From: Cristatella mucedo | Taxonomy: Eukaryota; Bryozoa; Phylactolaemata; Cristatellidae | Direction: 5' to 3' | Assembly (NCBI GenBank): GCA_009760855.2 | Contig: WPIO01000049.1 | Location: forward strand, 496,001-560,000 | DNA: 64,000 nucleotides | Shown: in pieces, positions 34,401-37,400 of the stretch | How positions within the stretch are numbered: the first letter of the stretch is position 1 | Layout of the letters: every line of letters begins with the position of its first letter | Made by a program: the position numbers and the translations under genes | The notes under the pieces: model-generated | Told to the model about the DNA's origin: nothing | Database searches by the model: none | What the model saw: only the letters and a program-made list of their open reading frames with translations

Positions 34401-37400
34401 TGGACAATAGCTGCTTGATGCAAAGTCAGTGTAGGTCGATGAGACATAGTTTAGTATCACAGTTGTGAAGTTTGTAACAGGCAAGCCTGGTTGTACAGTT
34501 TAGCTCTAACTGCAACTACCTTTTTGCATATGACAGAAGATCTGCGAGTAGTGAGTTACAGAAGTCAAGCAGGGGTGTCACAAATCCATTCACCAGCTTG
34601 GATAAGATATTGCTTTTTAAGCTGGCCCAAATTTTTGCAAAGTCGTGTAGATGAAGGTAGGCATATTCGACTGTGGAGCTAAAGCAGTCGTTTATTGTAA
34701 GGTAACTTTGGAACAGGACACCCAGATCAGGTGCAAATGCAACAGGAAATATGCTGGCTGAGCCCATTTTGAGGATTATGTTTTCAAACCGAGTAACTCT
34801 AGATCTGCCGGTAACTAACAAGTTAGTTGGATCGTCATTCAACCTGAAGTGGTTTGCTGCCATTCAAGGGCAAATATCAGTAATACAACCCATTGAGTTA
34901 AAATAGTAATACAATTAAATAAGTACAATGTATTTAAATACCTCACTGAGAGAAATATTTCTCTCTCCCAAGAGCTTTAAAAATGCCAAAGGGCTCGAGC
35001 CCAAGACCCTGATCCTTAAAGGGGATCACCTGAGTAAAATCAGACGGGCAGTTATGAGAGTTCGACATGCTGAAAGGCAGGGAGGGATCAAAGCAAAGAC
35101 ATAGCTGTGTATCATCTGAATGTGAATGAAAGCCTATATTATGATTAGCGATAACATTACCAAAAATGACAGTTTAAATGATGAAATGAAATAGACCAAG
35201 CACAGATCTCTAAATAAATCCATATTTTTAAGGCTCACATATGATCGGTGCCCGTCGACATCAACGATATAAATTCTCCCACTAAGATAGGACCTAAACC
35301 AGCGGTTCTCAACCCGTGGGTCCCGTTCACAGGGGTCACATAAGACCATCGAAAAAGATGCATTTCCACATTTTGCACACGATAATTTTATGGTTGGGGT
35401 CGCCACAACACGAGGAACTGTGTTAAAGGGTCGCAGCACTAGGAAGGTAGAGAACCACTGACCTAAACAATTGCAATACAGATTCCGTGATGACCAGGCG
35501 AGATGATAAGTGCACACCATTGATCACGAAATTCTGCTTGAACGATTGAGAACAACGATCGGTCTGGCAGACGAAGCACTGGCGTGGTTTAAATCATACT
35601 TGTCTGATCGTGTTCAATTCGTGTCGTGTGGGGGTCAGGTCTCAGACATGAGAAGGGTCACCTGTGGAGTCCCTCAAGGGTCTGTACTTGGTCCCTTGCT
35701 GTTCTCTATTTATACGCAACCTCTGGGAAAAGTGATTAAGGCCCATGGAATAGGATATCACTTCTATGCTGACGATACTCAGTTGTATTTGTCATTTAAA
35801 CCGTCGGAATCTGCTGCAGCAACTGAGAAAGTGAATGCTTGCCTTGCCGATATTCGATCCTGGATGTCGGAAAACTTCCTGAAATTAAATGACGATAAAA
35901 CCGAACTGCTGCTCACAGGACACCCTACGAGTGTGGCTGGATTAAAAGGCTTTGCTGTTCTAATAGGTGATGCTATTGTGCGACCTTCACCACATGCTCG
36001 TAATCTAGGTGTCGTGTTCGACAGCTGCCTCAATTTCAAAAGCTTCATCCAGAAGACTGCCTCTGCAGCTAGCCATCACATCCGATCCCTATCCATGATT
36101 AGGAGCTGTCTCCCACAGTGGCTTGTAAAAAATTTAACTAGCTCTTTAGTTCTGTCTCGGCTTGATTATTGTAATTCCCTTTTGGCTGGGCTACCAAAGA
36201 AAGCTATTATGCCACTACAGCGGACTATGAATATGGCTGCAAGGCTGGTCTTCAAGTCCCAGAGGTTTGAGCACGTGTCTTCTTTGTTAAAAGAGCTAGG
36301 ATAGTTGCCGGTTGAGCAATGGATACAGAGCAAAGTTCTTACGCTGACCCACAAGGCCCGCCACGGCTTGGCTCCTTCGTACCTAGCTGAACTGCTACAT
36401 CAGTTTCAGCCTGTTCGCGCCCTCAGGTCCTGTGTGGACAATAAATTAGCTGTCCCATTTCTCCGCTTAAAGACAGTTGGCGACAGACGCTTTAGCTCTG
36501 CAGGTCCTAGGCTGTGGAACTCGCTTCCACAATTCTTACGCAACGACATCTACTCTCCAACTGCCGACTTTGGCACATCTTTTTCAGCGGTCCTGAACTG
36601 CTACTTCTATGCTACTCACTACCTCAACTGCTCTCCTAACTCAGCTATGCTTCCTACTTTCTCTTTGTTGCGTGAGACGAAGCCTGTTGGCTACCGAATG
36701 CGTACCGAAAGCCGCTTAGGCTGTGAGTGCGCTATACAAAACTCCCCTGCGTAACACCCACATGGTCTTTATGACTTTGTGGAGTTACTGACGGAGATAC
36801 ATTACATTACAAGGAGATAGTAATCACTGATTTCAAATCCATTAAGTAGAACTAGCAGAGAGACTATGTAAGTAAGCACTCCCGAGATGCTTCTTATACA
36901 CTAACAGCAGTGCTGAATCTGCAGAATGATTAGCTGAAACATTTGAGTGAACAAACTAGCCGGCTTTGTAGTTTTGACACAAAAGAGCTTAGCTGGTCTG
37001 CTACTACTCTTGCCTGTGTCTATTAAAGGGATGGCAATTGAGCAGAATTTGCTTAAGTTCTCCTGGTCTAGTGTTGCCATCTTAATGAGTGGCTTAAGCC
37101 AGCAATTTTGGAGGATGCGGGAGCAAGGCATGAGGCTAAGGACATATTTATAATGTTAGTTATAATATTGGGAAACGGCAAATCCAGGCATATAGTAAGG
37201 TAAGCATTAAGTATGAGATCTAGAGGGCTGCACGAGAAACTGCAAGATGAGGTCACAGGTGGCAGACTTTACGGTGGACATTGAAGTAAAGTAATGAACA
37301 GAAGGGACGAGTCTGGTGGGGAGGCTACCTTGGGGATGCACTCTCCAATCTCATTTGTCTTTCTAACTATTGCCGCAAGGATCACTAGGAAATGTGTCAC

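Follow-up and report, generated by a model that had tools for sequence, protein, structure and literature searches.

The window, the stretch of 64,000 nucleotides analyzed here, contains two shortened members of one non-coding transposon family with a consensus length of 187 bp. The family is a Buster-type hAT MITE, and we regard it as a non-autonomous element that very probably belongs to the SPIN group. The evidence comes from the two copies in the window, from the family across the genome and its target preference, and from a comparison with a provisional SPIN-type consensus.

Results

Two Copies in the Window

The initial annotation had described a 161-bp element with inverted ends and a perfect 8-bp duplication. 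Both features were found as described. The octamer ACCTAAAC stands on both sides, the 161 bp between the duplications run from CAGCGGTTCTC to GAGAACCACTG, and the 15-nt arms are 87% complementary (Table 1). This copy is non-coding. An 18-nt motif from the 5' end, GTTCTCAACCYGTGGGTC, occurs twice in the window, in this copy and at position 29436, and both occurrences are exact, compared with 0.08 expected at up to 3 mismatches. The second copy, which had also been pointed out beforehand, is real; its flanks agree at 6 of 8 positions and its 3' tip is mutated. Of the three interior strings ascribed to the first copy, TTAAAGGGTCGC is present there, but GGTCGCGACC and TCGAACGACCC are absent from it and were found in the second copy instead.

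Table 1. Features of the two MITE copies and of the LINE sequences around the first copy (positions in the window)
Feature	Position	Strand	Remarks
hAT MITE copy	35300..35460	+	161 bp; family consensus 187 bp; net 26 bp shorter, near the 5' end
Target site duplication, left, ACCTAAAC	35292..35299		fits nnnTAnnn; 8/8 with right flank
Target site duplication, right, ACCTAAAC	35461..35468		8/8 with left flank
5' terminal inverted repeat, CAGCGGTTCTCAACC	35300..35314	+	15 nt; inverted-repeat arm
3' terminal inverted repeat, GGTAGAGAACCACTG	35446..35460	+	15 nt; 87% complementary to 5' arm
Decayed LINE reverse-transcriptase segment, target of the MITE insertion	35050..35301	-	blastn 69.6%; tblastn
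Separate LINE fragment (RVT_1), adjoining the nested site	35510..36541	+	opposite strand to the nested LINE
Second copy of the same MITE family	29431..29597	+	167 bp; net 20 bp under consensus; last bases mutated
Left flank of second copy, ATTTAGAG	29423..29430		6/8 with ATGCAGAG (atttagag / atgcagag)
Right flank of second copy, ATGCAGAG	29598..29605		6/8 with ATTTAGAG

The first copy had further been placed inside an older LINE, and the alignments agree with this. In blastn, the LINE copy at 32501-33900 of the same window matched the minus-strand segment on one side of the MITE at 69.6%, and the protein match extended to about position 35500 when the MITE flanks were joined. An RVT_1 domain was found in this related LINE copy (32594-33715). 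The LINE match at 34065-34887 is probably part of the same LINE copy as the segment at 35050-35301. Stops and frameshifts were observed in the interrupted copy. Because the LINE is interrupted by the MITE, it is older than the insertion.

It had also been claimed that excision of the element restores an 11-residue LINE reading. The joined flanks do give this reading, but the gain is small and weaker than claimed. In tblastn, the match was lengthened upstream: LINE residues 18-47 were matched with the flanks joined and residues 27-47 with the MITE in place, at scores of 38.1 and 36.6 bits, respectively, and the DNA match grew by 5 bases only. The first bases of the MITE happen to read RW and thus already lengthen the LINE match at the filled site; this mimicry of two LINE residues accounts for the small gain. 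The 8-bp duplication is stronger evidence of insertion than the restored LINE reading.

The Family across the Genome

The genome (572 Mb in 688 contigs) was searched for further copies. Initial candidates from a DNA search numbered 1,775; 40 of them were scored, and all 40 matched. A 31-nt pattern from the 5' end was found at 768 places with up to 2 mismatches, compared with none for the reversed control pattern. From the first 44 of 80 listed exact matches to the 5' end, 40 copies were fetched, the other four matches lying beside places already listed in the DNA search. All 40 copies continue into a common interior. In 35 of them the 3' end could be recognized, with 4 mismatches in 15 as the upper limit, and 30 of these 35 copies with both ends are 180-190 bp long. 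The 187-bp consensus starts with CAGCGG and finishes with CCACTG. Consensus sequences were derived from 29 copies (27 picked by similarity to the window copy plus the two window copies) and from the 35 copies with both ends; each is 187 bp long, and they are one base apart. The family exhibits the hallmarks of a MITE in being short, non-coding, present in many copies, and uniform in length with its ends kept, and those of a hAT element in its 8-bp target site duplication and short terminal inverted repeats.

The 35 copies differed from the consensus by a mean distance of 0.103 (0.061-0.191), or 0.093 outside CpG, excluding the first 31 bases, by which the copies had been selected. Two copies (L096 and L121) are 98.7% identical to each other, and their entire 401-bp stretches including the flanks are 98.8% identical. 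They are one locus present twice, by duplication or in the assembly, and do not represent a recent transposition. Because the flanks are shared too, the 35 copies correspond to 34 independent ones. At general substitution rates of a few per site per thousand million years, which are not specific to this host, a divergence of about 10% means a family age of some tens of millions of years.

Target Preference and Assignment to Buster

The 8-bp flank pairs of 64 copies were compared. Twelve pairs were perfect, 34 agreed in at least 7 of 8 positions and 45 in at least 6 of 8, compared with a mean of 1.5 and a maximum of 7 shuffled pairs reaching 7/8. The 30 pairs at 6/8 or below fit decay and do not prove insertion for those copies. 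In the left flanks, position 4 was T in 52 of the 64 copies and position 5 was A in 55, with both in 48. For TcBuster, an excerpt of the published work gives nnnTAnnn as the duplication and places Buster and SPIN in one subfamily (PMC3499496); by the same rule, the Mar MITE was placed in Buster, according to a section of PMC3517528. The nnnTAnnn target duplication was found in the MITE family as well. Because the duplications are mostly centred on TA, the published Buster target, the family is a Buster-type hAT MITE. The earlier identification as a hAT MITE is thus upheld by the 8-bp duplication, the inverted repeats, the many copies, and the Buster target preference.

Comparison with SPIN

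A provisional SPIN-type reference consensus, drawn from no database, was written out after the family had been seen, so that it is possibly coloured by the family, and was compared with the 29-copy consensus. Against this reference, 64 of the first 65 bases and 79 of the last 81 agree, i.e. 143 of 146 end positions. The middle gave no match and measures about 40 bp here and about 80 bp in the provisional reference. The total lengths are 187 bp here and 226 bp in this reference. Given a provisional reference, the agreement serves as a strong lead, and membership of the family in SPIN appears likely.

Exact element patterns gave no matches in viral contigs and none in genome contigs. A 16-mer pattern matched 10 stretches of viral contigs, in each case through the terminal repeat alone (best E 4e-4). 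The stretches were judged chance and rejected as copies of the element. The blastn matches in phages (13 records, E 2 to 7) and plasmids (2 records, E 2) were likewise judged chance. In the paper texts searched, the letters of the element did not occur, and none of these searches yielded a SPIN sequence.

Gilbert et al. reportedly described SPIN in Lymnaea in 2010. In the snail Biomphalaria glabrata, a hAT element with significant identity to SPIN numbers about 1,000 copies according to PMC5440852, which also states that the DNA transposons of this snail did not invade recently and that intact transposases were not detected. SPIN has been described in Rhodnius, according to a passage of PMC11614815. 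A snail and Rhodnius are thus published hosts of SPIN or SPIN-related hATs, so that SPIN in the present genome would extend a known pattern.

Search for an Autonomous Partner

The initial annotation had called for a search for an autonomous copy with a hAT transposase. No autonomous partner with the pair of MITE ends was found among 51 hAT loci examined of 184 listed matches (138 + 46). The PF05699 (Dimer_Tnp_hAT) profile had at least 138 matches in the genome (150 of 766 candidates scored), and the PF14291 (DUF4371) profile had at least 46 (150 of 237 candidates scored). The 51 loci comprised 20 top-class and 20 weaker PF05699 loci as well as 4 and 7 PF14291 loci.

Scores of 69-78 bits were obtained for 63 PF05699 matches, 16 of which lie within open frames of 635-642 aa. 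Mutual identity among the 20 top-class loci was 94.5-99.9% with a median of 99.3%. By eye, this young family looks Ac-like. The MITE ends were absent from the 20 Ac-like loci, each of which covered only 1.5 kb on either side of the domain, so that a distant 5' end could escape. As a separate observation, this young hAT family (e.g. L034, L035, L040, L043, and L048) appears to have been recently active. The 20 weaker PF05699 loci contained no pair of MITE ends, and a single inexact MITE-end site was present in each of five of them (L050, L054, L055, L059, and L063).

Four of the PF14291 loci (L069-L072) represent a DUF4371 hAT family of about 2.7 kb with the ends CAGGGGTGTCC...GGACACCCCTG, which were also recorded as CAGGGGTGTCCAACACGTGG...GGTTGGACACCCCTG. 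The four copies are 92.8-95.6% identical and are flanked by TA-centred target duplications such as ACCTAATC, GCATACAG, and GACTAGCG. This family was considered as the parent of the MITE and rejected, because its ends differ beyond the first bases. The MITE ends were also absent from the seven further PF14291 loci. One of the hAT transposases from this genome was also queried against the sequences of solved structures, and no hAT transposase was among the matches.

Mitochondrial DNA of the Host

Contig 688 is mitochondrial (21,008 bases, of which 18,000 were read). At conserved positions of cox1, AAA encodes lysine, AGA and AGG encode serine, ATA encodes methionine, and TGA encodes tryptophan. 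The mitochondrial DNA reads with the invertebrate code. This disfavours vertebrates, sea squirts, echinoderms, flatworms, and corals, whereas protostomes are compatible with it. The genes nad1-nad6-cob-nad4L-nad4-nad5, named by eye, are all on one strand, in an order reminiscent of molluscs, nemerteans, and lophophorates. The earlier suggestion that this genome may be another recipient of SPIN fits an invertebrate host. On the same contig (L130 and L131), recurring translated frames were noticed at about 2.5-3.4 kb (minus strand) and at 11.6-12.5 and 13.7-14.6 kb (plus strand); these repeated frames are a duplication or an assembly artefact.

Discussion

In the reading that we favor, the copies would retain only the ends bound by transposase. 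A SPIN/Buster transposase from elsewhere would have excised them and reinserted them at TA-centred 8-bp sites, leaving the nnnTAnnn duplications. The family would have expanded in this way to at least several hundred copies, after which the sampled copies would have decayed to about 10% from the consensus. The ends, the duplications, the target preference, the copy number, the divergence of the sampled copies, and the invertebrate-type mitochondrial code are direct observations. We infer that the element was mobilized in trans by a transposase whose source is now lost or decayed, that it would be a member of SPIN, and that it would have arrived by horizontal transfer.

Two other origins of the family have to be weighed against this one. 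The MITE could be a native Buster-type hAT element that was inherited vertically and whose kinship with SPIN goes no further than shared membership in the wider Buster/Charlie branch. The CAGGGGTGTCC family, with Buster-like duplications and its own ends, suggests that the group is at home in this genome, and the likeness to SPIN depends on the provisional consensus. If that consensus is right, however, the agreement at 143 of 146 end positions reaches far past the inverted repeats, which is implausible under vertical descent since the protostome/vertebrate split, and we consider a native origin unlikely. Considerably less probable still is mobilization by an intact-looking resident hAT, either the young Ac-like or the CAGGGGTGTCC family, with no SPIN transposase involved. 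Such residents exist, as the 16 open frames of 635-642 aa, the median identity of 99.3% at 20 loci, and the four CAGGGGTGTCC copies at 92.8-95.6% identity indicate. Yet no MITE ends were seen in the 20 Ac-like loci within the 1.5 kb covered on either side of the domain, the ends of the CAGGGGTGTCC family diverge beyond the first bases, and the 35 dated MITE copies lie 6-19% from the consensus, with no sign of present mobilization. A chance pair of inverted repeats without any transposon copy can practically be dismissed: the counts of 768 5' ends compared with 0 for the control, and of flanks agreeing at 7-8/8 in 34 of 64 copies, refute it.

For a SPIN-group MITE, the closest known systems are the non-autonomous SPIN (SPACE INVADERS) elements known from vertebrates, Rhodnius, and snails, which share the 8-bp duplication, the short inverted repeats, and the TA-centred target. 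Against the provisional consensus, the first 65 and last 81 bp are nearly identical as well, whereas the middle and the length (187 bp compared with 226 bp in that consensus) differ, and no SPIN transposase was found among the 51 loci here. The CAGGGGTGTCC...GGACACCCCTG family of the same genome resembles the MITE in its TA-centred target duplications and has a DUF4371 transposase match, but differs in its ends, its size of about 2.7 kb, and the 92.8-95.6% identity of its copies. The SPIN-like hAT of Biomphalaria glabrata is similar in its invertebrate host and its abundance, with about a thousand copies given in PMC5440852 and at least several hundred here. Likewise, the Mar MITE of Drosophila willistoni, as presented in a section of PMC3517528, is of the Buster type, with nnnTAnnn duplications and inverted repeats from CAG. 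Its own features, in the same section, are the inverted repeat CAG(G/A)GGTAGGC, conserved ends in 74 copies (79%) with recent mobilization, and a relic full-length copy.

As a tentative proposal, which we hold to be possible but rather doubtful, SPIN would have reached by its own horizontal transfer a lophotrochozoan that is not a pulmonate snail and perhaps belongs to another phylum; the interior of the MITE would be private, and no transposase would have survived. If true, it would widen the SPIN recipients beyond tetrapods, Rhodnius, and pond snails. Confirmation of SPIN against a database would add another invertebrate genome to the range of a transposon that has spread through vertebrates, and its hundreds of copies could be dated. 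This would aid the mapping of which animals exchanged DNA and when, and would leave the understanding of hAT elements unchanged.

Other Features of the Window

A DNA repair nuclease resembling XPG/ERCC5 is represented by exons on the minus strand at 55466-55945, with an XPG_N domain, and at 50250-51812, the latter assigned by eye without a Pfam match. A tandem array at 26940-27442 consists of 41.5 copies of the 12-bp unit GCACACACACCG with 96% matches.
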